Below, piece after piece: positions 9,001 through 56,224 of a stretch of 64,000 nt of DNA. The stretch is from Nymphaea colorata. Its lineage: Eukaryota > Streptophyta > Magnoliopsida > Nymphaeales > Nymphaeaceae. The stretch is taken from positions 33,639,706 to 33,703,705 of the forward strand of contig NC_045139.1 of the NCBI RefSeq assembly GCF_008831285.2, read 5' to 3'. The notes beneath the pieces are model-generated. The model did not search any database and was not told where the DNA came from. It saw only the letters and a list, made by a program, of their open reading frames with translations. Both the position numbers and the translations under genes were made by a program. The stretch's first letter is position 1, and every line of letters starts with the position of its first letter.

Positions 9001-12000
9001 TTGATCTTCTGAAGGAACATGAACAGTGGCAATGGTTCCTGGTTGAACGAGATCTCGAATGTAATGGCAATCCACCTCAATATGTTTAGTTCTTTCATGG
9101 AAAACTGGATTGTTTGCAATGTGTGTGGCTGCTTGATTGTCACAATACATCTTCATGGGAAATGTGATTGACACACTTAAGCTGGATAGCATGGATCTAG
9201 CCCACGTCATTTTTGCTGTTGTTTGAGCCATAGCTCTGCATTCGGATTCTGCACTAGATCTTGACACCACACCTTGTTTTTTGCTTCTCCACGATATGAG
9301 ATTGCCTCCCACAAATACACAAAATCCTGTGGTAGATTTTCTGTCCTCTACTGAGCCAGCATAATCAGCATCACTATAAGCTTCCACTTCCAGAGTCTTG
9401 CCTTTTGTGAACAAAAGGCCTTTGCCAGGAGAAGATTTCAGATATTTAACCACCATCAAAGCAGCATCCCAATGAACTTTCCTTGGTTTTTCCATAAATT
9501 GACTTAGTTTTCCCACTGCAAAACTAATGTCTGGTCTTGTCACGGTAACATATAGAAGTTTTCCAATAAGGGATCTGTAAGATCTAGAATCCACTAATTT
9601 TGTTTGGTCATCATGAAGATGTATACGTGGATTCATAGGTAAATTTGTCGGTTTAGCTCCTAGCATCCCTGTGTCCTGCAATAAATCAAGAACATATTTC
9701 CGTTGAGAGAGAACAACACCCTCCCCATTGCGAGCAACTTCTATTCCCAAGAAGTATCGTAGAGGACCCAGATCTTTCGTCACAAAGTGTTTTTGAAGAA
9801 ACAACTTTGCATCAGAAATTTCTTGATCAGAATCACCCGTCAGGATAATATCATCAACATAAACCACGAGAACAGTTATACCTCGGGAAGCCTTCTTGAT
9901 AAACAAGGAATGATCAAGAGGAGATCTCACAAAGCCACACTGTGAGACTACCTCGGAAAACTTGTGAAACCACGCACGAGGACTCTGTTTGAGTCCATAA
10001 ATAGCTTTCTTCAGCTTGCACACTTTTCCACACTCCCCCTGTCGTTCAAATCCCGGTGGTTGTTGCATATAGACAGTCTCATCAAGATCACCATACAAAA
10101 AGACATTTTTGACATCTAGTTGATACATGTGCCAGTCATGGTGGACAGTCACAGAAATAATAAGACGAATGGTTCCCAACCGAGCAACTGGAGAGAATGT
10201 CTCAAAGAAATCCACACCGTAGGTCTGCGTGTAGCCCTTAGCAACCAATCGAGCTTTGTATCGTTCCAAAGAACCATCAGAATTATACTTAACTGTGAAT
10301 ACTCACTTTGAGCCAACAATATCACATCGAGGAGGAGGATCAACAAGTTCCCAAGTGCCCCTCTGCACTAAGGCATCCATCTCATCTTGCATAGCCCGTC
10401 TCCATTGGGTGTCTAATAAGGCTTGCTGGTGACACGTAGGAATTGTATGAGCAGCCAAAGCATGAATGAATTGTTGCATATTTTTACTAACCCCATCAGT
10501 AGACACAAAATGAGATATAGGATGTAAAGTACATTGTCGTCTGCCTTTGCGAAGAGCAATAGGTAAGTCTTGACAAGGATCAGAATGAGTAGGGCTATGC
10601 GCTTCAGATGTACTTACCTCCTGAGAAACGGTTGGCAAAAGATTATGAGAAGGGTCATGTCGACGTGTGTAGACCAGCGGTGGATCACGAAACTTGGACA
10701 CAACAGACGAAGGAGATTCAACAAGGAACGACTCCAAAGGAATAGGAGGAATAGGTAGTGGGTCTGGAGACCGTGGCATCTCAGTAGACATAGGAGTGAG
10801 GCTATAATAAGGTTGAGACTCAAAGAATGTGACATCCGCACTGATATACTCTTTTTGAGTCAAGGGATCAAAGCATTTGTAGCCTTTATGGTTTCTGGAG
10901 TAGCCAATGAAAATGCATTTAATGGCTTGGGCTCCCAATTTGTCACGTGTGGGTCCAAGAATGTGAACAAAGCATGTGCAACCAAATACTTTGGGAGCCA
11001 CTGGAAACAAGGATCTTTGTGGGTGCACAAGTTTAATGGGGATCTGGTTATCAATGGAGGATGAGGGTAAACGATTGGTTAAGTAGCAAGCAGTAAGAAT
11101 AGCATCTCCCCAAAAATATGCAGGGAGATTAGTATGAAGCATAAGGGAACGAGCCACATTTAAAAGTTGACGATATTTTCGCTCAACTATTCCATTTTGC
11201 TGGGAAGTATGGGGACATGTAAACTGAGGAGAAATGTCATTATCTGAGTAAAACTTCATTAAGGTAGATGCCTTAAACTCAAGAGCATTATCAGTGCGAA
11301 TGTTTTTAACAAGAATACCAAACTGGGTCTTTATTTCAATAATAAGGTTTTTGAGAGTACATACGACTTCAGACCTTTCCTTCAAAAGAAAAACTCAGGT
11401 GACTCGAGAATAATCATCTACGATGACAAGAAAATAACGAAATCTTGACCTACTAGCAACTCTGCTAGGACCCCACACATCAACATGAAGAAGATCAAAT
11501 AGTCCACAAATGGACGTACTAAGACTCGATGAATAACTACTACGAGTGTGTTTGCCAAGTTGACAAGCTTCACACTGGAACGACTCTGGTAAGGAGAGAT
11601 GTGGAAGGAGATGACGGAGCTTGGAGACAGATGGATGACCAAGTCTGAGATGCCACTGGAACGAGGAGGACAACGATGTGATCGATGATGCTGCAATACC
11701 CACGGGATCCGACAGGAAGTAGATGCCCCCTTTCTCATAGCCTCCACCAATCGTCTTCCCAGTTGGCAAGTCCTGAAATGAACATAAACCAGAGTCAAAC
11801 GTAACACGACAATGTAAATCATTAACCAATTGTCCAACAGATAACAAATTTGTGGGAAACTTAGGAGCATATAACACATTGGGAATAGTCATAGATTGAG
11901 AGATCTTGATATCTCCATATCCCATAATGGGTGACAATCTACCATCTGCAAGTCTCACATGACGTATCTGAGGTAGTGAGTGTAGCACAGTAAACATAGA

Positions 12001-15000
12001 AGGCGTACTACAAAAGTGCCTCGATGCCCCTGAATCAATAATCCAAGTAGTACCTGTATCATGTGAGATAATGTCAACAGACATAGCGCTGTCAGTCATA
12101 ACTGTGGAGGCCGATGGCTGAGTCGATCTGTGTGCTAGAAAGTCCTCATACTCTGACATATTGATACTCACAGTCATTGTCTTAGGCTGAGAAGAAGATA
12201 AAGACCCATCTACTACTGATGACGCTGTTTGGGCCGCTCCAATAGAAGACTGTAAAGAGTTCTTCCCCAGCTTTGATGTAACATTTCTGCCTAAGGATGG
12301 CGCTGCAGTAGGACGACCATGTTTATCCCAACATCTGTCTTCCAAATGACCTATTTTCCCACAATAAGTGCACTGAAATCTCCCCCGACCTCCTCCTGAC
12401 CCACGGCCCATGCCTTTTCCCCTGAAGAAACCGCGTCCACGTCCTCCTGAAGCTGCTAAGGCAGAGGCATGGATATCACTGGCCGGTGAAGAGAGGGTCA
12501 CAGCAAGACGACTAAGCCTGTTGTAGGCTTCAGCTAGATCAGGGATTTCTGCTCCAGTCAGCATCTGAGCCTTTGCTACTGCATATTCAGAGGAGAGACC
12601 CTGTAGGAATTTCGCAACCATAGACTGTTCACCATGGGTCTTATAACATGTTGGACATGGAGGACGTAATGCTTTAAGTCGCTCAGAGATGGACTTAAGG
12701 GAAGCGAAGTACTGAGCAAGACTTTGGTCACCCTGTTGCAGATTAAGTAGTTCCTCCTCTACCTGCAATATTTTGCTAATATTCCTATCATTCGAGTAAG
12801 TCTGTTTCAAGAAATCCCACATTTGCTTAGCCGAGGTGTAGTGTGCAATAGTTGATGCAATTTGGGGTTGCACACTATTCATGATCCATGACATGACAAT
12901 ATTATTATCTCCCTTCCATGAACTATATTTTCCACTCTTTTCAACAGGTTCGTTTTCTTCTATAACATGCTCCTTTTGATGTCCAATCACAGACATCATA
13001 AACACACGAGACCAAATCTCATAGTTAGATCCATCTAACTTTACAGTAGAACCATACGAAAATGGATTTCCTCCACTTTTAACTTCATGAGAAAAATCAG
13101 ATTTATTACTTTCAGCCATCATAAATCTGTCCACAAGAGATCAACCACCAATAGCGAGAGAATATATATATATATTTCTATTGAAAAAGAAACTGATCAA
13201 CAAGAACAGACGTCCCACACGGCAACGTTAGATGCGCAGAAACAATCAACCTGCTGTCCAACTGTTGACAGCAATACCACAACAAAGAAGACTGCAATCT
13301 GAAGACAGAAAAACGCTGCTACCAGCAAGCCCACAACTGAAAACGAATCCCCACTGTTTGTATTGTTTGCGCTGACCAACGACTTATCTATTTATGCATC
13401 TAACGCTGCTATACCACAGTTTATCCTTCACAGATCATGAATAACGACAGCAAATAAAACCATCAACATAAACTTGCCATAGACGTCATAGATAGCAGTC
13501 CTCCACTTGGCTGCGTTGATCATATAACATATCAAATCATAGGCGATTAATCAGCGCAGACTCCCACACAGCTGCGATACTATATACACTTCTGAAAAAT
13601 CCACGGCTGGAGTCTATTCACGCATCTCTCCTAGCGTGAATAGACTCCTCCACACTGTTCCGTTGCTGGAAAACAACAACTAGAACAGGCGAGAGGTGAA
13701 GGAGAAAGAAAACGGAGGAAGTAGAAGAGAGCAAGCCTGAAAGGAGACGGAGGATCGCCGACGGTGTGCGTCACGTCCGCGCGCTGGCTGTGTGCTTCAA
13801 GTCTCCAGTAACGTCCGTAGCTCTGATACCATGTTGCAGCGGAGAAGAAGAGAGTGAGAGAGAGAAGCTGCCGTGAGATTGAACCTTGAGAACCCTCTAT
13901 TACGATAACCCTCATCTCTCTTATAAAAGAGATTAGGGTAAAAAGGGATTTACAAAATAACTCAATGGAAAATAAGGAAAATATTAAAGAGATCTTATAA
14001 CTCTTTAATATTACAAGGAACCTCCTAAAACATAAAACTTTTCTTGTTCAACACCTTTCATATTCTGTTATTATCCGTAGTTTAAGAAAATTCTGATCGG
14101 GAAGTTTCTCTTGATTTTTGTGAATGCCCGTAACATCCTGAGAGTTTGGTTGGCAAGTTGCCTCCAGGGCCAATTCATGCATATTTTAATAATTTGTGCC
14201 TGTTGATTAGTATGTTCTTATAGTTTCTTTGATAAAACCTAAAATTAATGTTGCCAATAGCATTTATTCATGTATGTGAAGTATGTTAGTAGATGTGCAC
14301 GGGTTTGAGTATGATAGGATATTTGTTTCAGGTGCGTGCATCTGCTGTTTTTGTTCCAGAAAATAGTGATCTTCAAAGTGAAGCGGACAAGTATTTTTTC
14401 TCTTATTCAATTCGCATGCGGCTTATTTCTCAAGGAAATATATTAGATGGCACGTGCTTGACTTCTTGTCAGCTTTATTCACGGCATTGGATCTTCCGGG
14501 CAAATGGCACTGTTGTGTCTGATATCAGTGATAAGGCTGTGATTGGAAAGGTGGAAAGTGCATCTTCTTTATCTGCTGTATCTTGATTAATATTCCATGC
14601 ACTAACATAACTATCACATGATTTTTCTTTTAGTAGTGGTACTCATGTTATTATTACAGTGAACATTGGTTTAGCAGTTCCTGAATGATCTGAATGCCAT
14701 GCTGTCCATGGAATTACTGCATGATTCGGTTGGATCAGTTACTGATGTTATTGTAAGTGTGACATGGTTTATTTAACAGATCTCTCAATGAAGACCATGA
14801 TGGCTACCAAAAGTTGGTTACTAGATACCCTTCTTAAGGTTCAGAGAACTGCATGTCATGTTGATCCTGAAGGTCCTTTAGTTAGATGAACACATGTTGG
14901 TTCATTCCATTTAGGGTACCTGAAAAACTTTTGTTTCTTCCCCAACTGATGAAGAGGTTCTTAGGTTTTTAGAAAAGAAAAAAAGGTAATCTTTAAATGC

Positions 15001-22184: not shown

Positions 22185-22556
<372 letters not shown>

Positions 22557-28594: not shown

Positions 28595-28672
<78 letters not shown>

Positions 28673-37600: not shown

Positions 37601-38010
37601 ATGACATCACAATATGAGTTGTTTTTCATGTAGACCTTGTTTGTTCTTGAACTCAATTCTTTCATGCGAATCACACATTCCTTTGTCTTTGCAATGTGAC
37701 GAGTAGCTCATGAATCAACCTACCAACCAGTCAAATCTCCATCTGCAAACAAACATTATGACACGACACAGATGATTTCTTTGTCGGAGTCCCCTTGTGG
37801 CTTCCTCTTATCGCTGTTATCTTGACCATTATTATATTTCTTATTCGGGATTTTTGTCTTGTAGTTCTTCATGATATGTTCAAGCTTTTCGCATTTGTAG
37901 AATTTCACTACAGTTCTTTGAGATTTCTTAGTGCCTACAAAATTGCCCTTAACCTTGCCATTGTTTCGATTTTTAAATTGTTTGGGTCTTAGAGACACAT
38001 GATGCTCCAC
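34666..38010 (-). pseudogene. Degenerate Copia gag-pol
   Basis: Fragments of zinc knuckle, integrase, RT and RNase H in correct order but in shifting frames. The RNase H part (35163-34666) is the longest open piece, with YSNADFACCKDDSKST and EAEYVA motifs. The RT catalytic region, read in pieces, is interrupted by several stops. Not functional. Confidence 0.8.
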
Positions 38011-38186
38011 ATCAGTATTTGATGAAGGAGGAGTTTGCTATTACAATGGCTTGCTTCATCACTGACCATATCTACATATGGTAGCCATCAAAATGAATAA
38101 TTAAGTCTTTGTTCTAATGAAAAATGAGTCATTATTCAACGTTTGGAAACTGTAATGGTTGATGTTTTTGTAGGTTTAGACCCCAC

Positions 38187-39265: not shown

Positions 39266-40554
39266 CTGCTGACATGATCACAAAGGAAAATGAAACGCCT
39301 ACTGTGATCCAACAGCAAGACTGCACAAAGCGCAATCAAAGGGATCCTTCCTCTGCTGTTACCTAAAGGTCTTCGATTTACAGTTTTTATTATATAGCAA
39401 GTGTATCTTCACTGCCATAACGCTTCTATATACAACTATAAACTATAACACATAGTCACACAAGTCAATATAAATAGATACTTACCCCACATGCTAAGGG
39501 TGTGAAGTGAGATTTTTCCTCCATTCTGGTATAATCATAATAAAAACTACTCGACCCTAACCCTATTAAGTATTTATGGCAGTAGCGGAGCTATATGTGT
39601 GGGCTGGCCAGCCCAATAAAGCTCCATGCGAAAAGGAGCTTGACATGAGGAGCTTCAAGGCATGTTTTGGCAGTTGCCCATGCCAGGATTGGGTCGCGCC
39701 CCACCGTTTTCCTCTGCCTCCAGCCCGCTTTCTGTTATGCTCCAGCCTCCAAGCGAGGTTATTCCAAGCATCTCGTTCAGGGATTTACGAGAATTCTAAG
39801 CCAACACCGAAATCACTGGCGGCAGGCTGCGGGGTAAATGTATGAGAGTCTGGCATTTAATCGCTTCCATCTCCTCCACCTCTGCTGCTCCTGACTCTTG
39901 CTTTTTTGTTTCTTTTCTTAACTATTAGTGGAAAATTAAGAAGAAGCGGTGAATCAGATAGCAGTAGCACTTAATGTATAGGATTTTCTTGTAATGAATT
40001 TCAGTTTTCAAATTTGTCTAATTTATGAAGGATTTTTGTTTGGCGATCTAATCACACTTGAGAAGTGAGGAGATCAAAGCTTCGCCAAACATCCCTCGTT
40101 TGTTTATTTTTACATTAATATCTTTAAATATTTGGTTTGTTGTATACGTGAGTGCCCCTTAGGAATACTTGTCAGGCTCCGCGGATTTATGGTCAGATTT
40201 TGCTGAGCAGAACTAAGATCCGATCCGCATGGGGGAATGAAGAAAGCGTGCAGGGGGTTGAGATTTTTCTACTCATTGTCTGTTGCCTGGAGAGCTTTCT
40301 TCTCTTTCCTGGCCTGAATGCTTCTTCACAACTGCTAGTTTCCTCGTTGCCTGGGTCGCCTGCTGCCCAGACTCCATTCTCTGACGAGGTTCTCTCTCAC
40401 TCTCTCTCTCCTCCTATGGTTTGGTTGGATAAAGGAGCTGCGTTAGCCTACTCTCTTTCTCTATGTTTTGGCCAGATACAAGGGCTGAAATGCATGCCCT
40501 AATCTCTCTCTCTCGTTCTCACTGTTTCAGCTAGAAAAGAGGCCTCCCTGTGTT
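39266..40554. other. Spacer before the minisatellite
   Basis: No gene supported. A scrap at about 39580-39620 (gtagcggagctatatgtg) resembles the ends of GGCGGAGC-type MITEs. From about 40380 C/T-rich sequence leads into the 57-bp repeats. Confidence 0.4.
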
Positions 40555-41035
40555 TCGGCAGGAGAAGAGAGGCTAAAATGCTGCCCTAATCTCTCCATTT
40601 ATCTCTATGTTTCGATTGGAGAAGAGAGGCTGAAATGCTGCCCTAATCTCTCCATTTATCTCTATGTTTCGATTGGAGAAGAGAGGCTGAAATGCTGCCC
40701 TAATCTCTCCATTTATCTATATGTTTCGATTGGAGAAGAGAGGCTGAAATGCTGCCCTAATCTCTCCATTTATCTCTATGTTTCGATTGGAGAAGAGAGG
40801 CTGAAATGCTGCCCTAATCTCTCCATTTATCTCTGTGTTTCGATTGGAGAAGAGAGGCTGAAATGCCGCCCTAATCTCTCCATTTATCTCTATGTTTCGA
40901 TTGGACAAGAGAGGCTGAAATGCTGCCCTAATCTCTCCATTTATCTCTATGTTTCGATTGGAGAAGAGAGGCTGAAATGCTGCCCTAATCTCTCCATTTA
41001 TCTCTATGTTTCGATTGGAGAAGAGAGGCTTTCTC
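40555..41035. repeat. 57-bp minisatellite, about eight near-identical copies
   Basis: Copies of ctctccattt recur at 40591, 40648, 40705, 40762, 40819, 40876, 40933 and 40990, giving an exact 57-bp period. Copies differ by single bases only. Because 57 is divisible by three, the minus strand reads as a 19-residue peptide repeat (NRNIEINGEIRAAFQPLF type). Degenerate older copies precede it from about 40490. Confidence 0.95.
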
Positions 41036-41451
41036 TCACTTTCGCTCTAACCAAGTCGCTCTAACCAAGTAGGTATATCAGGAAAGAATTAAATATATGT
41101 TCTTTGACATGGAAAGAGTCGGCCTACGGACTGCTACACTGTGCACATGGATCTAAGATTCTCATGTGCAAATCCTTTGGGCACCAAGGAATCTCAAATC
41201 CTCCATATTTGAAAAACCTTGGATTTTGAATACGAGGATCTCAACTGTTTAGATCAGTTGGGGAGCACTAGAAAATTGCACACTGCAGCCAACTCATCAC
41301 CATCGCTTCTATTCACACGATCTCCTTAAAAAAAATGGTAAATAGGAATGAAAACTTGAACATGAGTGCCTCCTGTGTTACTTTTTCTCACCATCGTTCG
41401 CAGTTTACAATGACGGTGTGATGGCATGCAACTCTGCATCATCGACATTTT

Positions 41452-41556
41452 CCATATATAAAACAAATGCATAGTGACCATAGGTACCATATATATAAAA
41501 CAAATGCATAGTGACCATAGGTACCATATATAAAACAAATGCATAGTGACCATAGG
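41452..41556. repeat. Three-copy tandem repeat next to the hAT left end
   Basis: The unit contains aaaacaaatgcatagtgacc followed by ataggtaccat, three times, with variable TA runs. The last copy runs straight into the hAT terminus at 41557. Confidence 0.85.
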
Positions 41557-42530
41557 TAGGGTGAACAACTGAGTCGACCAGCTCGTGCTTGACTTAGTCG
41601 ACTTGTAAGTGAGTTTGAGCTGCATTGAAGGAGTCGAGCTCGAGTTCACTTGTAAGCGAGTTTGAGCTGCATTGAACGAGTCAAGCTCGAGTTCACGAGT
41701 TACTCGAGCTTGAGATTACGAATCGACTCGTTCAACTAATAGAGTTTACTCAACTGACTTGTAAGCGAGTTTGAGATGCATTGAACGAGTCAAGCTCGAG
41801 TTCACTTGTAAGCGAGTTTGAGCTGCATTGAACGAGTCAAGCTCGAGTTCATGAGTTACTCGAGCTTGAGATTAGGAATCGACTCGTTCAACTAATAGAG
41901 TTTACTCAACTGAAATCCAAATCTTTAAAATTTGATTAGACACAAATGTGATTAAAATATTAATTTTGAAAAACCGGTTGAGATGAAACTTTTTTTCAAT
42001 TTAACTTTTAAGTTTGGGGTCTCTCCGACTGTCCGTCTCTCGAAACTTTTCCTTCTCGTCTCCGTCTGAAACTTGTTCCTCCATTGCAACCCTAACATTT
42101 ACTCGTCCGCAGGCGGGCTGCCACCTCAGTCTTCAGCCTTCAACGTCAGCCGGCATCTCCGCTTCAGCCGTCTCCCTTCATCTTTCAGCCCATGGTTCCT
42201 GCCTGTGCTCTCCGCTTCAGCCTTCTCCCTTCAGCTTTCAGCCCAAGTTTCTGCCTGTGCCTGCAACAAAGAGGGCAAGATTATGAAGTTCTCTCTCTCT
42301 CTCGCTTTCTTTCTGCATTCTCTCTCTGGCTTTCTTTCTGCATTCTCTCTCTTGTTTTCATCGCGATTCCTGTTTTCGGTTCCTCCTGCAGACGCCTCTC
42401 CCTCTCCGTCTCCTCGGACACATCCGATCAAATTGGAACGCCTCTCCGTCGTTCGCATGAAGAACCAGACACGCTTGTTGCGCTCTGCTCATCTCTTTTG
42501 CAGTGTGCGTGAGGTGAGGTCTTCCTGTGC

Positions 42531-42917
42531 GTGGGGAGAGAAAACGACTGCTGCTCATTCAGTCCTTTGAGGTAGGCAACAGATTCCATTTCTTGATTTT
42601 CTTTCTCCTACGGTTTTACCCGAAGCAGCGTTCGATTCTTTTCCCCATCTCTCAGTTTCTGCTACGATGATGTGCTCTTGTTAATTGTTATTTATTCCAA
42701 ATGTTGGTCATGTTGTGAAATATGGTTCATTTTTGTTGTTTGATGCTTGTATTAAACAGGAAACAGGAGCAGACATAGTTCTGCCGTGGGAGAGAAAACG
42801 ACTGCTGCTTATTCAGTCCATTGAGGTAGGCATCAGATTCCATTTCTTGATTTTATTTCTCCTACGGATTTACCCAAAGCAGCGTTCGATTCTTTTCCCC
42901 ATCTCTCAGTTTCTGCT
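42531..42917. repeat. Direct repeat of about 130 bp in the hAT leader
   Basis: Copy 1 is 42531-42663 and copy 2 is 42785-42917. Both contain gagagaaaacgactgctgct, gattccatttcttgatttt, and agcagcgttcgattctt. They are separated by about 120 bp and differ at a few positions. Confidence 0.85.
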
Positions 42918-44228
42918 GTTGCTCTGCTGGGTTTGCAGTTTCCACAAAAGCAGCGTTCTCTCAGTCTCTCTCGCTCCTTGTTCTGTATATTGCTCTTTCT
43001 GGTTTTTAGTTTGTCACGTTCTCATGCCGATGGGTTACATGTTCGTGCGGATCTGGACTGTGCACATTGTGTTGACATCTCTTAGAAGTACCTAGAGATG
43101 AGCCTGAATAAGTAGATAGCTTGAGAATTTTTTTGGCAGGGACTTCCTTAGTCCTTGACACTTTGGTTCTCTCATTGGCTAGCCATTCTACACTTACCTT
43201 GCCAACCTACATTTGACAATTAAGGTCTTTGAATCAGCAGATGGGAAATCAGTTGCTCAATTTAGAGCATATAACACCTCTGAGGAAGTGGATAAGCACC
43301 ATCAGTACGGGACTTGAGAATATGAAAAATTAGTATTCAGTATCCAGTAAGCTATTGTAATTACTAAATAGGAGAATAGATTTACAGAGTAACACCAGTT
43401 TCTCTTCCATTTTAGAGTTTTCTTCATTTTTAGAGAACTCAGAAAATGTCTGCTAGAAATTGAAAAACAAAGACAACCAAAAGTCCCTCTCACTGGCTTC
43501 ATAACGAAAGGTTGGTCTCATTGGTGTCTTAAGGCTTTATTGAGAGCCCTTAATTGGAGGCCGACAGTGAATTTCCAAAACCATATTCTGCTTGGCAGTG
43601 GACATTTCAGTTGCCCCAACATTCTGTTGTTTGTAAACAGTATTGGTTTAAGACTGTTGGGGATGGTTGGAGACGGGTTTGACAGCCCCAACACCACACT
43701 TCCACACTTTAACAATGTCTTTTCTGTTTCATACTCAACAACATATTTTGGCATACCATACTTTCACAATGTCGAGAACAATGTTCACATCAAAATGAAC
43801 CATCCGAAACAGACTAAGACATGAAGAGTTTTTTTTTTCCATCCCTTATTCTGCTTCTAACCATGCTTTTCCCTCCTACATTTGTTAGACATAAAATCTA
43901 TAAATATTGAGGCACAACTTACTGTATTGACAGGAATAGATGGGACTGGTTAGAATTCATGACTTGATTTGCACGAACGTTTTCTCTTTCTTCTTCATTT
44001 ATTCTGCTTCCAACCCCTTCTTCAGACCCCCATGAATTCATGAATTCACTTCAAAATATTGTATATTTTTGCCTTTTTTCCAGTTGGGATTAGTGTTTTT
44101 TTTATATTTAATAATGAGAATCAGTGTTTTTTATTTCATATTCTCTTATATTGTAATATGTTTCTGTCAAATATCATGTTCAAATAGGAGAATAGCTTGA
44201 GCAGAAGGAAAAATTACTAGTTTGAAGA

Positions 44229-45640
44229 ATGACAAATTTAGAAAGAAATATCATTGATAAGGGCAAGCAAGTATGTTGTGATTCAAGACAAAGCTCAGAT
44301 GATGTCCCGATCAGAGTACATTCCTCTAATGAAACTCCTATGGATTTGCAAGACATCGAAAATGAAGAAGTTTCAATAGATGCTCATGAAGCACGTGTAA
44401 GTGGTGCAAAAGATCAAGAGCAAAGATTTCTATAATATGGAATGATTTTGCCGATGTTATTATAAATTGTATCAAAAAAGGAAAATGTAAGTATTGCAGT
44501 ACACTTTTTATGATAAGTACAGGAGGATCTACATCATCAATGAGAAGGCACAAACGTTTGACACGTTTTGCTTACAAAAAACAAGTTAATTTAAATTTTA
44601 AATCTGGAAATATTTTAGATGTCACGAAGAAGCTTATGGAAATGGGTTCCAACATCGATGCTCAATCAATAAGAGAGATAATTGCAAAACTAGTGGCAAC
44701 CGGAGAGCATGCTTTTTGTATAGTGGATGATTGTTGGTTTAGGTTTCTTATTAGGCTTGGTTTTTTTAATTGGGTGTAAGTTTCAAGAATGACAGTTAGG
44801 AGAGATGTCATTAAATTATATGAAGATGAAAAGAAGAAATTGAAAGAAGTCTTGAATGGTGTGATAAGGTTGCTTTGACTACAAATATGTGGACATCAAA
44901 CCAACAATTTGGATATGTGACATTAACAACACATTTCATTGATAAAGAGTGAAATATGCAACAACATATCATCAATTTTACCGAAGTTGAGCCACCTCAA
45001 TCTGGGTTAGTTTTAGCAAGTGTAATTGCTAAGCATCTTGCAGATTGGGAGATCAAAAAGAAAATAATGTCTATTACAATTGACAATGCTTCATCAAATG
45101 ATGTTCTTGACAAAAAATTAAAAGAGAACATGGAGAAAGCGACATTAAATTGTATCATGGAGGTAAATTTTTTCATGTGCGATGTTGTGCACATATTTTG
45201 AATCTGATGGTACAAGATGAGTTGAGTGCCATTAAAGATGAAATCATTAACATTAGAGATGTAGTAAAGTATATCAAAGTTTCACCTTCAAGACTCCATG
45301 GTTTTGCAACTGCAGCTAGAGAATTGGAAATTTCAACGACAAAGAAGTTAGTGTTAGATGTACCAACTCGATGAAATTCAACATATTTTGTGTTGGAAAC
45401 AACTCTTGCATATAAAGATGCTTTTGCAAGATATAGCATGGAAGACCCAGGCTTGGTATGGTTGCTTGGACCTGAAGATTGGGAAAAAATAGCAATGATA
45501 TGTGTTTTTATAAAAGTTGATACTCACCATTTAACAATTTTCTCCAATGTCATTTATTTTGGTAGCTCCTTTATTGCATCTTTTGTCTTCCGGATGAAAA
45601 AGAGATATATAAAACTTTATTCATTCCTACACATTAACAA
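44229..45640 (+). pseudogene. hAT transposase (RICESLEEPER type), frameshifted and truncated
   Basis: A BED zinc-finger region is readable at about 44410-44560 (IWNDF, CKYC, GGSTSSMRRHK), then QSIREIIAKLVATGEHAF (about 44670) and a block at about 45150-45520 with FHVRCCAHILNLMVQD, a DVPTR-stop-NSTYF junction and EDWEKIAMICVF. These are the conserved blocks of plant RICESLEEPER-like hAT transposases. Breaks include a frame change near 44430, stops at 44777-44779 and about 44877, a stop at 45372-45374 in place of a conserved tryptophan, and loss of the C-terminal dimerisation domain. Non-functional. Confidence 0.8.
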
Positions 45641-46820
45641 ACAAATGAGCAAAATCCATAAAAGATCAGATATAGGAACATGAACTCAAATGCACTGTCA
45701 TAAATTCATCCCAAAGGCCACGAGAAAGGTAAGTAGACGAGATGTAACGACAATGTTATTTGCACCATTGCTTTACCAAGTCACCTACAATTAAGAATGG
45801 AACACTATAAAGAAGAATAACTAAGAATGCAACAATATAAAGAAGAAAAACCAATAATTGATCATATAGTAGCTATTTCATTATTTCAACTTCTAACAAC
45901 GAAGACGACAAAAAAAAAGACCCTAACAACACACATCCAATCATATCTACACATAATATAGATAGAAAGGAGATTTTCATGAGATGTTTTACAAGATTCT
46001 CAATAATAAACAAAGCCTGTGAAGACTTCTGCATTATCCCCACTTCATAGTGAATGTATTTAAATATTATGTCAACGTACAAATTTATAAAAAAAATATT
46101 AGAAACAGAAATATATCTAACTAAGGAAAATTAATTTCTTTCCTGCATACATATACATGGTATTGATTGAACCAATCGGTTCAACCCGCAAGTCTCCTAC
46201 CAATATCCCTTATTAAAGTAACCTTATTTTAATTAAACGATAAAAAGATTAAGATGGTGAAAATTTGCTCTATACTAAATTACTTTCATTTTAACTTCAA
46301 GCACAAGTTACGAAACAATTGCACAAAGTAAATGCAATTTCAAAAAGTAACAAGATAAAATAGATAAAGACGAGAAATCTAAATCAAACCCAATTTAGAA
46401 TGTAAAATTATGATTCTGCTTGTACTTCAAATAAAGACCGATTTCAAACTCTACAAATCCAAGTCAGTAAGAAACACAAACTAAAGGACCCAAGAGCAAA
46501 GCTTAGCAGACACAAAAATTCATTTGAGAGACCCAATCATAGGCAAACAAGACGTAACACAGAAAAAAGAAGCATAATTCCAAATGTGGGGACTCTCCCC
46601 GGGCAAGTGACTCACAACGGTATAACCCTCCTTGCCTACCACCCAGAGAGAGGAAGAGACCCCTCAGTTACCGAAAATCGGTGAGGTCTTCAATTTTCAG
46701 CATAGTCCAGCACCGGTGGGCAAGACCTCTCCTTCCCGCAGTTGAGGGAGCAAAACAGCATTAAGCGAGAGAGAGAGAGAGGGAGAATGAGATCTCGACT
46801 TCTTCTTGTATAAAACACCC

Positions 46821-47706
46821 TAGGGGTGAACAACAAGTCAAGCTACTCGAGCTCAACTTGAAAGCTAGTTCAAGTTGTATCATGTGTTGAACGAGTCGAG
46901 CTCGGGTTCAACTAATCGAGTCGAGTTCGAGTTCACTCAACTGGAACCGTTAAAGCTCAACTCGGCTCGAATGTGATTAAAATACCGGTTCAAAAGCGTC
47001 TTAGGCGAAAGCAATGAGCAGAGCGCAACAAGCGTATCTGGTTCTTCGTGCGAACGATGGAGAGGCGTTCCAATTTGATCGGATGTGTCCGAGGAGACGG
47101 AGAGGAAGAGGCGTTTGCAAGAGGAACCGAAAACAGGAATCCCAATAAAAACGAGAGAGAGAGAGAGAGAGAGAACTTCATAAACTTGCCCTCTTTGCTG
47201 CAAGCATAGGCAGAAACTTGGGCTGAAAGCTGAAGGGAGAAGGTTGAAGCGGAGAGCAAAGGCAAGAACCTTGTGCTGAAAGATGAAGGGAGAAGGCTGA
47301 AGCGGAGCTGCCGGCTGACCTTGAAGGCTGAAGGCTAAAGTGGCCCGCCGCCGCAGACGAGTAAAGGTTAGGGTTGCAATGGAGGAACAAGTTTCAGACG
47401 GAGAAGAGAAGGAGAAGTTTCGAGAGACAGAGGGAGGGAGAACAAAAAGGAAACCTAAAACTTGAAAGTCAAATATGAAAAAGAGTTTTTCGCTTTAGAC
47501 GCTTTTGAACCGATTTTTGAAAACCAGGATTTTAATCACATTCGAGCCGACTCGAGCTTTAACGGTTCCAGTTGAATGAACTCGAACTCGACTCGATTAG
47601 TTGAACGAGTCGACTCGTGAACTCGAGCTCGACTCGTTCAAAACATGATGCAGTTGGAACTCACTTACGAGTCAAGCTCAAGTAGCTCGACTCGTTGTTC
47701 ACCCCT
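46821..47706. mobile_element. Foldback hAT derivative with two copies of the same end
   Basis: Ends TAGGGGTGAACAAC on both sides. The terminal inverted repeats run about 190 bp, to about 47013 on the left and from about 47487 on the right. The 470-bp core, read on the minus strand, is the leader of the 41557 element (compare 42030-42490), cut off at ctctgctcat and joined directly to the second end. There is no transposase. The immediate flanks (ataaaacaccc and gggtattttat) are inverted copies of each other and not a direct 8-bp duplication. Confidence 0.75.
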
Positions 47707-47862
47707 AGGGTATTTTATACAGGAAAAAGTCGAGATCTTGTTCTCCCTCTTTCTCTCTCACCCAATGTTGTTCTGCTCCCTTAACTGCGGGAAGAAGAGG
47801 TCTTGCCCGCTGACACTGGACTACGCTGAAAGTTGAAGACCTCATCGATTTTCGGTAGCTGA

Positions 47863-48105
47863 GATGTCTTTTCCTCTCTCTGGGCAATAGTCTGGGGGGG
47901 TTATACCGTTGTGAGTCACTTGCTTAGGGAGAGTTCCCATATTTGGAATTATGTCTCTTTTTTTTCTACGTTATGTCTTGTTTGATGTCTTTTCCTCTCT
48001 CTGGGCGATAGGCAAGGGGGGTTATACCGTTGTGAGTCACTTGCTCAGGGAGAGTTCCCATATTTGGAATTATGTCTCTCTTTTTTTCTACGTTACGTCT
48101 TGTTT
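47863..48105. repeat. 121-bp tandem duplication in the right arm
   Basis: Copies 47863-47983 and 47984-48105 share gatgtcttttcctctctctg at the start, the ttataccgttgtgagtcact block, and cttgttt at the end. The left arm has only one copy, so this arose (or was lost there) after the inverted duplication. Confidence 0.85.
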
Positions 48106-48974
48106 GCCTATGATTGGGTTTGTTAGATGAATTTTTGTGTCTGCTAAGCTTTCTTTTGGGTCCTTTAGTTCGTGTTTCTTGTTGACTTGGATTTGTAGAG
48201 TTTAAAATCGGTTTTTGTTTGACGTACGAACGGAATCATAATTTTACATTTTAAATTGTGTTTGATTTAGATTTCCTGTCTATCTATTTTATCTTGTTAC
48301 TTTCTGAAACTGCATCTACTTTGTGCAATTGTTTCGTAACTTCTGATTGAAGTTAAAATGCAAGTAATTTAGTATAAAGCAAACTTTCACTATCTTGATC
48401 TTTTTATCGTTTACTTAAAATAAGGTTACTTTAATAAGGATACTGGTATGAGACTTGCGGGCTGAACCAGTTGGTTCAAACTTCAATCAATACTATGTAT
48501 ATTTATGCAGGAAAGAAATTGATTTTCCTTGGTTAGATATATTTCTGTTTCTAATATTTTTTTTATAAATTTAAACGTTGACACAATATTTTAGATACAT
48601 TCACTATGAAGTGGGGATAATACTTGAGTCTTCACAGGCTTTGTGTTTATTATTGCGATATTGTAAAACATCTCATGGAAATCTCCTTTCTATCTATATT
48701 ATGTGTGGATATGATTGGATGTGTGTTGTTACGGTCTTTTTTTTTGTTGCCTTCGTTGTTAGGGGTATCATACATGAAAATGTCCTAGATAATACAACTT
48801 TATGTCCAGTTGCAAATTGCGATGTTTAATTGGTGATGCCCATGCTAGTTTAATCTCCTGATGCGACGTTACAACTTTGAAACTTATAATGTTACAACTT
48901 TATAAACAGACACCATCTGAAATTAATCAGATACGGACATTACAACTTTTAGTTTTTCATTTGCTTGCTTGCAG

Positions 48975-50126
48975 ATGTCTAATAATGTGGGCAGCTCTAA
49001 GGAGGAGACATCCAGAAGTACTGATGTAACGTCTTTGGCTAAAGATGCTGAAGATAGTCGGTATGCTATTTTTAAGAAGTTACTGGAGCAGGCATCCATC
49101 TATGGAATAGCTGCCGGATACTGTCTTTCTGCCTCACTTTTATCAATAATCAACAAATGGGCCGTAATGAAATTTCCATATCCTGGAGCTTTGACTGCCT
49201 TGCAATACTTCACAAGTGCACTTGGTGTCTTGGTGTGCGGATGGTTAAAAGTGATTGAGCATGACCCACTGAACCTATACACCATGTGGAAGTTCTTACC
49301 TGCTGCCATGATATTCTATGCATCCCTTTTCACAAACAGTGAGCTTCTGCTACATGCCAATGTTGATACATTTATAGTTTTCCGTTCAGCTGTCCCCATA
49401 TTTGTGGCCATTGGAGAAGCTGTCTATTTGAAGCAGCCATGGCCTTCGCTGAAAACCTGGTTGTCTCTTGCTACTATTTTTGGTGGAAGTGTGATCTATG
49501 TTCTTACAGATTACCAATTTACGGTGACTGCTTATACATGGGCATTGGCCTATCTTGTGAGCATGACGATAGATTTCGTTTACATAAAGCATGTAGTTAT
49601 GACAATCGGACTGAACATATGGGGTTTGGTTCTGTACAACAACCTGGAAGCGTTGCTTCTATTCCCTTTTGAATTTCTTATTATGGGGGAGTTGAAGAAG
49701 ATAAAGCATGACGTTGCAGATGAATCAAGTTGGCATTCCTTCAGTGTGATTTTACCAGTGGGTTTGTCCTGTCTATTTGGGCTTTCCATCTCCTTTTTTG
49801 GGTTCTCATGTCGGAGGACCATCTCAGCTACCGGGTTTACTGTTCTTGGTATTGTGAACAAGCTTCTCACAGTGGTAATAAATTTAGTTGTTTGGGATAA
49901 GCATTCAACGTTGATTGGGACAATTGGCCTTTTGATATGCATGTTGGGTGGAATTTTGTACCAGCAATCAACTACAAAGCCTGCTCCTCCGAAAGTGCAA
50001 GTTGAAGTTGATGATGAAGAAGCAAAGCTGCTCCTGGAAATGCCAAACCAAGAAACTAGTGCTCCTGCAAAACCAATGAATGAGCAGGAAAGTGCTGCTA
50101 CAGAAAAGTCTGGGAGGACCTCATGA
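48975..50126 (+). CDS. GONST3: Golgi nucleotide-sugar transporter, GONST3 type
   Basis: A 383-residue member of the NST/TPT drug/metabolite transporter superfamily, closely matching Arabidopsis GONST3 (YGIAAGYCLSASLLSIINKW, residues 43-62; FPYPGALTALQYFTSA; LLHANVDTFIVFRSAVPIFV). About ten transmembrane helices span residues 40-332. GIVNK (292-296) lies where the GDP-sugar-binding motif of GONST1 (GALNK) sits; GONST proteins import GDP-sugars into the Golgi lumen, but I cannot prove the substrate. The tail (333-383) is hydrophilic. The open frame extends six bases upstream to a TTG, but the real start is the ATG at 48975, which begins exactly at a splice acceptor (gcttgcag), so the gene has a 5'-UTR intron. 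All coding sequence is in one exon. Confidence 0.9.
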   Translation: MSNNVGSSKEETSRSTDVTSLAKDAEDSRYAIFKKLLEQASIYGIAAGYCLSASLLSIINKWAVMKFPYPGALTALQYFTSALGVLVCGWLKVIEHDPLNLYTMWKFLPAAMIFYASLFTNSELLLHANVDTFIVFRSAVPIFVAIGEAVYLKQPWPSLKTWLSLATIFGGSVIYVLTDYQFTVTAYTWALAYLVSMTIDFVYIKHVVMTIGLNIWGLVLYNNLEALLLFPFEFLIMGELKKIKHDVADESSWHSFSVILPVGLSCLFGLSISFFGFSCRRTISATGFTVLGIVNKLLTVVINLVVWDKHSTLIGTIGLLICMLGGILYQQSTTKPAPPKVQVEVDDEEAKLLLEMPNQETSAPAKPMNEQESAATEKSGRTS

Positions 50127-51776
50127 TTTTGTAATTTGCCTTTTTGGAGCTAATGCCAAACTCGAGATATCATTTCATTCTTAATTGTAATTCTTACATA
50201 TTAAGGAGAACACTTGCTCTTGAAATGGTCTGTATTTCCTTCGCTTTTAGTCACTACAGTTCGTCCTCCCTGCGAGATGGCTTCACTTCCCATTTTTCTT
50301 TTGGTATACAAGTACTTGCTACCATTTTCCGACCAAATACTAAAATGGAAAGAAAAAAATTCTAAAAAAACCTAGTGATGTTATTTTCTCCTGATGAATT
50401 GCAGATGAAGATGAAAAATTGCTACATATAACTTCATGGCTAGGTTGAGAAACTGATTCTCAAATACCGAGAAGCATCAGAGTTATTTAAGATGGGTTTC
50501 CATTTCCATCAACAAGTCAGTTATTTAAGATGGCCTTACCTGAATTCCAACCGGTAATCTAGTCCAGTTTTTCTCTTGGATGTCTAGAATCAGAGGAACG
50601 GGACAAAGTGGAAGTAAGCATTGATATCTTAGTGAGTGGGAGACAAATTGTGGAAAAGGGGGAAGTGGGACACAACTACGGGATTGAACCAAGTAGCATT
50701 CTTTCAATATAAATATATATATATTGCCTTCTGTACAAATTTTCAGTGAATAATTAGTTCGTATGTTAGTTGATAACCAACATAAAATAAGGGCATATAT
50801 AAATTACACTATTAATGAAATACGGCATGGGTAATAATAGACATATTAGAATTATGCCAAATTTAACTTCGAAAGATTAATTGCTCATGTTTATTATATA
50901 CTCTCTTCACTGTATTGTAACTTAATATGAATTTTAATAAAATAAACTACATTTGAAATGTCACCTCAATCCCAACATGTCATTTTTTTTTGTTCTTAAC
51001 TTAAGATAAATATTTATCTGCAGTGATTTTATTGAGAATTTTATGTATCAGAAATTTAACAGGGCTCAATAAAAATGCTATGTATCAAGTTGGTTCAAGC
51101 TAAATATCATGACATGATGCAAAACGTACAAGTATTGAAAGTTTTTCATTTATAGTCTTAGTTTTTTTATGTATATATAATTTTAAAAGATTACTTATCG
51201 ACATTTTTCCAAAGTTTATCTTTGTTGTAAAATCATGTGACGTACTTCCGTCAAGTTTTTCTTAAAATAAGATCGTTCGAGAACAACTTATAACGTTACG
51301 AATAAAAAGTTAGTAACATTTTCATTTTGGTAACAACAAATGCAACTTTTCTTTTTGTCCAAACTTTTAAAGACGAACTTATTTTGTAGAGATTATATAC
51401 ACTTCATTTAAAATTTCACATTCAAAACTTATTCTATGCCAAAGGTAAAATAATAATTATGCAATAGTTATAGAATACTTTAAAGTTTTTACTTACGCAT
51501 TATTAACATTATATTTATAGAAGAATGTTTCAAAAAAATTGAACTTAAGTTTGTCCAAACTTTAAAAGACGAACTTATTTTCGTAGAGATCAAATATACT
51601 TTACTTAAAAGTTAACATTCAAAATTTATTCTATGCCAGAGGTAAAATAATAATTATGTAATAGTTATAGAATACTTTTAAGTTTTACTTACGCATTATT
51701 AACAACATTAAAAAATTGATCTTATGTTAATTAGATTTCTTTTCTGAAAAAGCGTCTCATAATTTAGTCTATAACA
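50127..51776. other. 3' flank of GONST3 and AT-rich spacer
   Basis: The first 250 bp probably contain the 3' UTR. An internal direct duplication lies at 51358-51712. No other gene is seen. Confidence 0.45.
51358..51712. repeat. Direct duplication, about 155-bp units
   Basis: Units about 51358-51510 and 51553-51712 share aaagacgaacttatttt, aggtaaaataataattatg and ttacttacgcattattaac, with several differences. A 40-bp unrelated stretch lies between them. Confidence 0.8.
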
Positions 51777-52800
51777 TTGTCATGCAACAGCCAACAGGCA
51801 CCGTATATTTCATGTCGAAAGGATCGAATAATTTGGAGGCCGTTCATCGAGTGTCACAAAAAGGTGCTTTTGAAGAGAAAACTTATGACCACGGAGCACA
51901 ACGTGGCTCCGCCACTAAACTGTTTGCCACGATCACTCTGTCCCAAGTTCGAAGCCTACACGTTCCACAAGAAGGAAGCAGCAGGTCGGTTCTTCTTTCT
52001 CATTTCCTTTTTGTTACTTGGTTTCCTTGGAAGAACAGCGATGCTTTTCGATTGGTTCAGTTGCCGCACGAAATCGTGATCAAGATTTGTGAGACTTGGG
52101 TTAGGATTGTGCTGGAATACTCGGATTTGTTTTTCTCCTTGGGAATTTGATTGTTCTTGCTGGTAGAACTACCGAAATAACTTTGGGAATGACCTAAATG
52201 TGCTAGGATTCTTCGGGGTTATTGGCGTGATTCTTTCGTAGTCATGCAACGGGTTGTTGCTTGGTTCCGCTTTGACGAGACTGAACGAGCGTTTTATTGG
52301 AGAAATCGAGAGTTGAACTGAAAAAGTTCCACTACATACGCTGCCGGCGAGATAATCTTTTCCATGGAGTTGTCCTGTAAGATCTTAATCTCCCTTCGAT
52401 GGGAAAGGTTCATGGACACCGGAGCTTTGTCGTGAGAGTTTGTGCCGAGGGGATCGTATTAGGTATTGGACTAGTTATCTATAAAATCAGTTTCGTGATT
52501 TTTTGGGTTGAATAGTCGACTTTTGGCCTTGTCCCATGCACAAGACATGTAAGCAGTGGCATGGGAAATCCTTGACCCCTTCGTCCATCCTTTTTCATGA
52601 AAACCAGCATTGGAGGTTTGTTATTTCATCATTACCGTTTCTAAACCCAATATCTGTCGTCATAATAATCATGGCTCTTGGCATTTTTTTGTCCCACTTT
52701 TCTCATTTCCTTTTTCTTACTGCATTGTCATCGTTAATTATCTCGTGCATTGTATTCATCACGGTATAATTATGTTCAGGTCATGGAATTGAGGAGAGGT
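51777..52800 (+). other. Possible transcribed leader region, unassigned
   Basis: Higher GC than its surroundings, with overlapping ORFs at 51777-52150 and splice-like signals: a donor after gaagcagcag near 51985, an acceptor (atgttcag) near 52780 and a donor (gagag, gtgagt) about 20 bases later. No protein domain is recognisable. It could be the 5' end of a non-coding or short-peptide gene. Confidence 0.2.
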
Positions 52801-53343
52801 GAGTCCTATTTCTGGCAGCTCCATGTTCCCTAGTTGTTATTAGTCATGTTCATCAACAAAAGCCTGTGGTCATAATCAAACTTTTCCCTTATGTGACAAT
52901 TCATCTTTTTCCTGCTTTCCTGCCACCTCCTGCCTGTAGGTTGTATGGTCCAATTACTGGACTTGTTGAATGGCATCATATCTACCTGTTAGTCTGAAGA
53001 GGAAGTGCATCTCTCTTGATTTATAATTGAAGAGTTCTGTTTCCTTCCAATTTTTGGCATAGCTGGAAAAACAGCTTCATCAGCTCAGGCACATAAATGG
53101 GATTGATCAAGTTGACCGCTTAACTGTGGGTGCCACCAAGTAGCAACGTGGTGTTCTAATCAAATACTCACAGGGGCAGTTGAAACCTTAAGAACATAAA
53201 TAAACTACTTGTGCGTGTCAATGTGTGGAAGGTCTGGCACTTCAATGTGCAAGTGCTGTGCTAAACGTGTCATGGATATGAATTTGTTTATGTCCTTGCA
53301 GGAGAGGTCCCTGATTTTCACACGTACTGTTATCAGCGATTCA

Positions 53344-53414
<71 letters not shown>

Positions 53415-56224
53415 TGCCAAGAGGATGTTTTGTTACAAGAAAGAAACACCATATTCATAGGGCACTGTATTCTACAGTTCTATTCCACCAAATATACTTT
53501 TGGTGGCACTAAGGAGTTGTTTGGCTAATGGAATGGTAACATACCATTTCATGAACCTGTTCCATAAACCTGCCCAAGAACTGAGCCAAGTTTTATGCTA
53601 CTATATCATTAACCAAACAACCTCTAAGGAGTAGTAACACTCAGTGTCCAATAAAATGGGGCAAATTCATAGGACACCTTACAAGCATTTCATAAATCTT
53701 TTCTATTTTATGGATCAGATTCAAGAGACAGTAACAATGTCTTATTATTGGAACACTCTATGAATTCATAAATCCACCCCAAAGATTAGAGCATCCTATG
53801 GGACATTATAACTAAGTGTTTTATAAATCTGCTCAATTTTTTGGGACAGAATTTTGCAACACTCACAATATTATAGCTACCGAAAGGCCCCTTAGGGGCA
53901 GTTTAGGAATTATTGTTCCATGCATATGCTTCAAACTAGGGCAGATTCATGAAACACTTTTCGTGGTATTCAATGAATCTTACCAATTTTTGAGTTAGAT
54001 GCATACGACAATAACATAATGTTACTATTCCCAAACAGCCCCTAAGAATCTAAGAGGCCATACGATATATTTGTTCTCATACATTTAGTGGTGGATTCAC
54101 TATCTCACGTTTGTAATGGACTTAACTACAAAATGAACATGGGCATTCATTCTACTCACATTATACCAAGTTTCAAACACCCTAGAAGGGAAATCTTGTC
54201 CAAACATTTAGATCCAAGATCCCGTTGGGTATCACATCCAAGCCCCTCACTTCTAAATTATGGTCTTCATCCGGCAACTATATGTGTACATAAAATGTTT
54301 TAGTATGTTACATGGTATTAATAGTAGATCCCACAATAAAGTATCATTCTTTTATGTTTCTTGGTTTTGGAGAGAGATTCTTGTACATCAAGGCTAATGA
54401 TCACTTTCTAGTCCAAAATGAATCAAACACATACTTTATTATTTAGTATACGAAAATAAACATGGTAGTTCCCATTCCACAATAAAGTAAGTTATTTATG
54501 TATCATAATTTATTAAGTTCATACTTCACGAATTCTTAAGAGAGAATGAAACAGACACTTGACCATACAAATGGGAGATGCTGCCTTCAACTGTGGATCT
54601 CAAAGTGTTATCTTAATGTGACAATTTGGTCAATAGAGATCTCATAAATCAAACCAACCAATGCTTCCAACAAGAGCATAGCCACTTAACGCAAAAATCT
54701 GATTCCCCTCCATCAAACTTACGACTTAAGGTTAGATGTCCTTTGGCTATCTAATTCCAAATGGTCTCAAACCAATTATTCCAATTCGTCTTATTGAAAA
54801 AGTATTAGAAAATAATTTGAAGTTTGAGAACCTTTTTTATCCATTATACAATTCGGGTGTATATATCCAAATCTAAAATTCAATAAGGATTTGACTTGAT
54901 TATATGTTTGCGAAAGTGGGGTCTTATCCCTATTGGATCTGTATTCAATTTCATAAAGAAAAAAGGAAATCAAAGTCTGAAGCTAGATTCCAGTTCAGAT
55001 CAAATTGTACCAACTACGGTAAAAGGTAGATCTGACCCGAGCCCGAACCATTTACAGCCGTGGATGGCAGGGCGATGGACCTTAGTGGTGGAGCCTGAAA
55101 GTTTTAACTGAAAGGCACTGATCAATCTTATTGTTGTAATTGATTGAGTGCGTGTAAAGCTATATGGCATTGGCCTGGGTCTGGTGTGGGCACCACATGT
55201 GTCTAGGCCATGAGTCCAATACATAATAAATAAAAATTTTACAAAGGTTTACAGAAGCTGAGGTGGGCAGTTGCCCACACCAGCCCCCATGGTAGCTCCG
55301 CTATTGGCAACGGTCCTGACAAAAGTGGGCATCCAGGGCAGGCTCTTCAGACGCTACCAAGACTATTTTGTCCTAAGAAAATTGTGCCCAATCTAAAACA
55401 TAATTAAAGGCAAATTTTAGAATTTTAACCATCTTGCAACAAATAGCATCTAGCAAGATTGAATTCTTATCTATATAAGACCTACAGCACATGGCTCTGT
55501 GTTTCTGTGTTAATATAGAATGATAGATTGGTACAATTATATCCAGTGTTACTGAATTGGCTGGTTCTAATCAAATTGGTGGCAAATTTTTTTTATTCAA
55601 TGGCCGATTCAAAAGTGCCAATATTTAAATTTAATATTTTTTTTATGTTTTTCATACTTATTTTTATATTTTATGAAAAAAAAAACCTATTCAGAACTGA
55701 TTGAGCTGAGTGATGAATCAGCAGAGCTTCCCGATTCGATGTTCAATAAACGATTTTTAAAGCACTGTGTATATCCTTTCCATTAAGCAACGATTTCCCT
55801 TCTCTCTCAAAATAGTCCTTACTTGATAAAGATATCCAAAAATACTCCTTCTTTTTGTTGTCTTTCAAATCCATGCTCCTTTTTTTTTTCTTTTACCGTA
55901 GCAGTCAATCCACCTTAAAACAGCAGAAAAAAGTTTGTCAAGTTTGTCTGAAAAGGTTTTTTATCTTTTCAAAGGATGGGTCCGAATAAAACACAATGGA
56001 CAATTATGAAGATTTCCAAAAATTAATGAACTTTCAGATTTGGGTAATGTTTCATTTTGAGGCATGGAAGAGAGAAAAGGAATGGTGTTTGGTTAAGGCA
56101 TGAGAAAGTATTGTTATATCTTGTAATAGTAACTCAAAGCAAGAGGTTGTTTGTAAAAGTGGCCCAGAGGTTCTCCTCTCATTCCTTGGGATCCTGGACT
56201 AGGTCCCCATGGAGTAGTATGGCA
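52801..56224. other. AT-rich spacer
   Basis: Contains a (TA)n microsatellite at 53346-53411 and a SINE-related scrap near 53110-53200. No gene supported. Confidence 0.45.
53346..53411. repeat. (TA)n microsatellite
   Basis: About 33 uninterrupted TA units. ORFs across it on both strands are poly(Ile-Tyr) artefacts. Confidence 0.95.

Follow-up and report, generated by a model that had tools for sequence, protein, structure and literature searches.

Inverted duplications at hAT elements have been reported as products of sister-chromatid transposition in the Ac/Ds system of maize, for which the account of Zhang et al. (2013; PMC3744419) describes breaks at the element termini and 8-bp target duplications left behind. 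Human fold-back junctions, as presented by Hermetz et al. (2014; PMC3907307), enclose spacers of 766 to 70,466 bp and show 2 to 8 bp of inverted microhomology in 13 of 21 cases. At double-strand breaks in yeast, short templated inverted fold-back insertions, mostly of 5 to 34 bp, have been described (PMC11724301), and in animals the account of Pack-TIRs given by Tan et al. (2021; PMC8277862) has breaks inside DNA transposons being filled from nearby sequence. Here, we analyzed an inverted duplication that surrounds a hAT-derived piece upstream of a GONST3-like gene, and for which fold-back repair begun within a hAT element is probably the origin. The locus lies in the window, i.e., the whole stretch of 64,000 nucleotides under analysis (contig C2, positions 33639706 to 33703705), and all genome searches covered the 407.8-Mb assembly of 783 contigs to which it belongs. 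No report on this locus was among the papers listed by a literature search, which is weak evidence of absence.

Self-alignment of the window returned two inverted arms, at 45893-47010 and 47488-48762, flanking a 477-bp spacer, with an ungapped identity of 90.3% (1,003 matches, 108 mismatches, and 171 gap columns). The local score of this inverted repeat was 1509, compared to a maximum of 34 in 20 shuffles, and the inverted duplication is confirmed as real and far above chance, in agreement with the original prediction that the two arms are inverted copies of each other. Outside the hAT sequence, the right arm (47708-48762, forward strand) is the original sequence upstream of the GONST3-like gene, including a putative promoter and leader with a 5′ intron. 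The left arm (45893-46820, reverse strand) aligns with it as a detached, reversed copy, again as anticipated. The spacer (47011-47487, forward strand), which would form the loop of a fold-back, is hAT interior present once between the arms. The majority of the gap columns are due to a tandem duplication of about 121 bp (47863-48106, forward strand) found in the right arm only and absent from both the left arm and the paralogous locus described below. Assembly hairpin artefacts are expected to have near-identical arms; because these arms differ at about 10% of the compared sites, an assembly hairpin is an unlikely source of the inverted repeat. Mismatches were as frequent in the hAT part (21/190) as outside it (87/921), with no difference by Fisher's test (P = 0.50), and this similar overall divergence fits a single event. 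Along the arms, divergence is uneven: the Kimura two-parameter (K2P) distance is 0.152 where the arm lies beside the hAT, against 0.063 for the inner hAT part and 0.077 at the outer end. CpG decay between the arms gave no clear one-sided bias, the C or G at CpG transitions lying in the left arm at 6 sites and in the right arm at 11.

A genome search for the arm sequence gave three copies (3 of 3 candidates scored), two in the window and one at C2:30744415-30745720. This third copy sits in a reverse-oriented duplicate locus, C2:30740213-30747609, about 3 Mb away on the same contig, which matches the window blockwise from 40185 to 53412 (K2P of 0.05 to 0.13 among blocks), with an extra short match at 38001-38140. 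The duplicate, a paralogous and not an orthologous locus, provides a single-arm reference: it has no hAT, and its match stops at window position 46820, the base preceding the hAT. Read in the direction of the gene, its order is the arm, a segment that we call F (window 45892 to 45508), a segment X, and the GONST3-like gene, with the arm and F contiguous. Segment X measures 582 bp in the paralogue and had one occurrence in the genome search, and F and X together span 967 bp there. The GONST3-like gene of the paralogue is broken, with 80% identity over residues 1 to 262 and five stops. For the paralogue sequence upstream of the arm, no counterpart was found in the window. The distance between the left and right arms (K2P, 0.113) is slightly smaller than those separating the paralogue from the left arm (0.133) and the right arm (0.134), and over 914 compared columns, 41 sites are unique to the left arm, 42 to the right arm, and 61 to the paralogue, while 8 differ in all three. 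Under a clock, it is weakly supported that the inversion postdates the segmental duplication (P = 0.027), a pattern that a faster-evolving pseudogene locus would mimic.

Several other repeats were recorded in the window. A tandem array whose period is about 57 bp occupies 40545-41030, and all of its units align to a single short segment of the paralogue. Long perfect AT dinucleotide repeats are found at 22190-22281, 28600-28670, and 53346-53411, the last of which is where the segmental duplication match ends. Two LTR-retrotransposon-like units with opposite coding directions, putatively of the Copia type as judged by eye from their open frames, lie at 2146-7443 and 8679-14054; their direct terminal repeats are similar, at 97% and 98% identity. 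At 55084-55306 lies a short dispersed repeat, about 220 bp long, for which the genomic matches listed run into the tens.

The central piece had been taken for a hAT element with two genuine ends lying exactly where the arms begin. Termini of the hAT type are indeed present at 46821 and 47707, but the arms pass through both of them and run about 190 to 220 bp further inward, so that the inner border of the repeat (47010/47488) falls inside the element. To orient the central piece, we relied on its relatives, which are numerous in the genome and for which a genome search scored 40 of 935 candidates. Fifteen hAT loci were fetched (L012 to L026), 14 of which were oriented by their right ends and tested, along with a second hAT copy in the window (copy 2), for a left end marked by a target duplication. 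Exact 8-bp target duplications were found in 3 of these 15 sequences (L021, L022, and L023), which also carry the short terminal inverted repeats typical of the hAT family; in all three, the left end (TAGGGCTGAACACGAGCC..) differs from the right end (..CGACTCGTTGTGCACCCCTA). No target duplication was found in the 12 other sequences, in four of which (L013, L018, L019, and copy 2) the right end was inexactly placed. Left ends were found in 0 of 10 long members, where they may fall outside the fetched stretches, and the family left end is known from the three short members. When compared with 13 family right ends, the left “terminus” of the window (46821) scored 146 to 202, versus 71 with the rearranged end of copy 2 and 24 to 27 with the three family left ends. 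Because family right ends score high and left ends low, the terminus at 46821 is a copied hAT right end and not a left end. The segment 46821-47010 (reverse strand) is then an inverted copy of the right end whose original lies at 47488-47707 (forward strand) and terminates in ..GTTCACCCCTA, both termini representing the same right end. In a tree of hAT right ends, the two window ends were nearest each other (path, 0.14), with weak support.

Family membership was also examined at the protein level. Among relatives whose open frames are longer, the hAT transposase domains PF14372 and PF05699 are present in genomic copy L037, and PF14372 in L033; the other L037 frame matched no Pfam family. Two short broken transposase pieces of the window likewise returned nothing from Pfam, and a PDB search with one such piece gave weak matches to designed proteins only.

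At the inner junction, J1 (47005-47010), the window reads GCGAAA where native relatives read GCAAAA, and GCGAAA also occurs on the opposite strand of the right arm, at 47488-47493, placed as a fold-back with a 477-nt loop requires. Two separately located points coincide here, the inner end of the repeat (47010) and the departure from copy 2 and L012 (47005): the alignment of the central element with copy 2 starts at 47005, and so does its match to L012. To the left of J1, copy 2, L012, and L024 share native sequence (..AAGACCTCACCTCACGC..CTGCAAAAGAGATGAGC..), and at GCGAAA the central piece gives way to the inverted arm. Copy 2 served as the probe for this native sequence and was matched by 2 of 21 other family sequences, several of the others possibly not reaching the region. 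Since the alignments to copy 2 and L012 begin at J1 while relatives continue natively, the repeat border and the loss of native hAT sequence appear to be one point. The annealing match there would be inexact, with inverted microhomology at the spacer border in 5 of 6 bases (GCGAAA versus native GCAAAA, the native state being deduced from relatives). An inverted match of at least 5 of 6 at the same distance occurred in 131 of 20,000 random pairs, and in 125 of 20,000 in a run at distance 477; the position of the J1 match was chosen post hoc, and the resulting 0.7% understates chance and is a guide only.

On the left side, the rearranged block ends against copy 2 (41557-45507, reverse strand), which comprises a right end near 41557 and interior sequence, with a degenerate transposase readable on the forward strand from about 44300, and is truncated at 45507, where inverted GONST3-side sequence begins. 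That sequence is segment F (45508-45892, reverse strand), which is inverted here, lies between the arm and the GONST3-like gene in the paralogue, and is absent from the right copy. The left duplicated block is consequently the longer one, F belonging to it even though the right copy is without F. At the junction J2 (45500-45513), hAT transposase is joined to F with a short in-register similarity, AAGTT, which is present in register in 6 of the 12 hAT copies compared. All 12 of these loci run past the J2 point with mutually shared sequence, from which the window departs at ..GTGTTTTTATAAAAGTT. The central hAT is most like a reversed copy 2, its best genomic match among the 40 of 935 candidates scored. 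Positions 47011-47487 differ from 42495-42020 of copy 2 by a K2P of 0.102, about equal to the divergence between the arms. Tandem repeats lie at or next to the right end of copy 2 (41440-41560 and 41600-41913), including a 158-bp duplication with 96% identity.

On the right side, the arm meets the GONST3-side intron directly at junction J3 (48759-48762), with a CTAA overlap and with F and X missing. Given the order of arm, F, X, and gene in the paralogue, the most parsimonious interpretation is a loss of F and X from the right copy. A motif, TAGGGGTA, that resembles a hAT end in 7 of 8 bases is located in the intron of the gene at 48760-48767 and exactly adjoins J3. Sites within one mismatch of the hAT-end motif number 27 in the window versus 27.6 expected, and the intron motif occurs in the paralogue too. 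Moreover, the sequence at 48763-49754 matched the paralogue alone among the 40 of 357 candidates scored and, at that sensitivity, does not belong to this hAT family. We take the motif beside J3 as chance, yet its closeness to the junction counts in favor of transposase involvement at this site, and our confidence in the fold-back model is slightly lowered because of it.

The explanation that we favor, and hold to be probable, is a fold-back (template-switch) inverted duplication begun within a hAT element. The starting state would have comprised, in this order, an upstream sequence (U), the reversed hAT copy 2, a second hAT whose right end adjoined the leader, the leader arm, F, X, and the GONST3-like gene. 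A break or a stalled fork in the second hAT would have left a 3′ end at about 47005, which may have turned back on its own strand and paired over six bases (GCRAAA) at 47488, so that 477 nt remained as a loop. DNA synthesis would then have produced a reversed copy of the hAT right end, the arm, and F, and the end so formed would have been joined to copy 2 at 45507, with loss of the hAT left parts. The deletion of F and X from the right copy, with its CTAA overlap, could have occurred then or later. No related species or allele shows a pre-event intermediate with one arm and the hAT. As the original prediction stated, the flanks of the hAT termini are inverted copies and not direct 8-bp repeats, as seen in the alignment, and a normal hAT insertion cannot give this structure. 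A template switch or fold-back, one of the options that it named, can give it. Because the arms continue through both termini, the left of which is a copied right end, the inverted flanks would need no special transposition: a single block, made of the hAT right end and its flank, would have been copied in reverse.

The other option named beforehand was alternative transposition of the hAT (sister-chromatid or reversed-ends), as in maize Ac/Ds. There are hAT ends inside the rearranged segment, two related hATs stand 5 kb apart, and TAGGGGTA adjoins J3, all of which would suit such an event. However, J1 lies in the hAT interior (47005-47010), J2 in the transposase (45507), and J3 in the intron of the gene (48759), which places none of the three junctions at an end of either hAT, and no 8-bp duplication was found around the unit. 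Against a role for the motif stand its presence in the paralogue and the match of the stretch from 48763 to 49754 to the paralogue alone among the 40 of 357 candidates scored. Nor would transposition be expected to leave two copies of one end that each adjoin the same flank in inverted orientation, and we find this origin improbable. The long terminal inverted repeats around a loop also resemble a foldback element, and the 2.9-kb unit could be imagined as one large foldback transposon, a reading that the original prediction tied to many genomic copies of the whole unit. Such copies were sought genome-wide and not found. The arm was found in three copies only, two of them here, no target duplication was found around 45893-48762, and the duplicated block reaches 45508 on one side only; copy number and the missing target duplication led us to reject this reading, which is hardly credible.

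Some hAT-derived elements have long inverted ends. The central piece, taken alone, looks like such an element, and the outer inverted duplication could then have been a later, separate event. The low divergence of the inner hAT part and the higher divergence of the adjoining arm would agree with this order, but overall divergence is alike in and outside the element, and native sequence is lost just where the repeat has its border. In the three members with exact target duplications, left and right ends are unlike each other, and on account of these family ends we judge a natural element of this kind unlikely. A further possible source of the left arm and F is the paralogue, at about C2:30.74 Mb, through ectopic insertion or conversion, given that both are found there in the same orientation as in the left copy. 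However, the joint to the hAT right end falls on the same base in the left and right arms, and the paralogue is without a hAT at that place; in addition, the two arms are slightly closer to each other than either is to the paralogue. The shared hAT joint was the ground for setting this origin aside as very unlikely.

The coding sequence downstream of the fold-back duplication (48975-50126, forward strand) is intact and encodes a TPT family transporter as one open frame, open across 383 residues, downstream of an apparent splice acceptor that immediately precedes the start codon (TTGCTTGCAG followed by ATG). A TPT family domain was identified in the protein (PF03151; E value, 1.3e-16); the domain evidence reaches the level of the TPT family, and the name GONST3 stems from the original reading of the sequence. 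As the right arm precedes the apparent splice acceptor, it plausibly holds the putative promoter and leader with a 5′ intron. A crude scan of this arm for 5′ splice sites, with approximate weights, gave several similar-scoring candidates and placed no leader exon. Through the rearrangement, the intact duplicate may have acquired, on its upstream side, a reversed copy of the promoter and about 0.9 kb of sequence able to form a hairpin, and since the aligned arms share 82 perfect 21-mers, hairpin siRNAs from them are possible. Any effect of the fold-back event on the gene would be incidental. It is conceivable, but doubtful, that the inverted pair is a regulatory hairpin, in which transcription of the left arm and hAT spacer would give double-stranded RNA and siRNAs that silence or tune the GONST3-like promoter. 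If this were true, a repair accident would have become a heritable switch for the sole intact member of the duplicate pair.

We regard the locus as a well-preserved example of a known repair accident and not as new transposon activity. It offers a natural plant case in which three junctions, the ends of short family members, and a single-arm reference let fold-back repair be told from transposase action, and it cautions that a “transposon” can come to have matching flanks on its two sides when one end is copied with its flank. Like the Ac/Ds products described by Zhang et al. (PMC3744419), it has hAT elements at a duplication of flanking DNA; unlike them, it shows no junction at the ends of these hATs, and 8-bp target duplications were not found. 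With Pack-TIRs, as portrayed by Tan et al. (PMC8277862), the locus shares the proposed break in a DNA transposon and template switch at microhomology to nearby sequence, as well as a single-copy product. Here, by contrast, the sequence filled in is the end of the element itself and the adjoining flank, inverted in order; portions of two different hAT copies, with two right ends, delimit the product. The yeast insertions reported in PMC11724301 resemble it in the proposed fold-back at inverted microhomology, the synthesis, and the capture of the other end by end joining, although those are mostly 5 to 34 bp long and the stretch copied here is about 1.5 kb. As in the human fold-back duplications of Hermetz et al. 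(PMC3907307), an inverted copy, an unduplicated spacer, and a short inverted microhomology at the spacer border are all present. In contrast to the human cases, the duplication is kilobase-scale and interstitial, is fixed in a plant assembly, and is closed on a nearby locus rather than by a telomere or translocation, and its spacer of 477 bp is below the range reported there.
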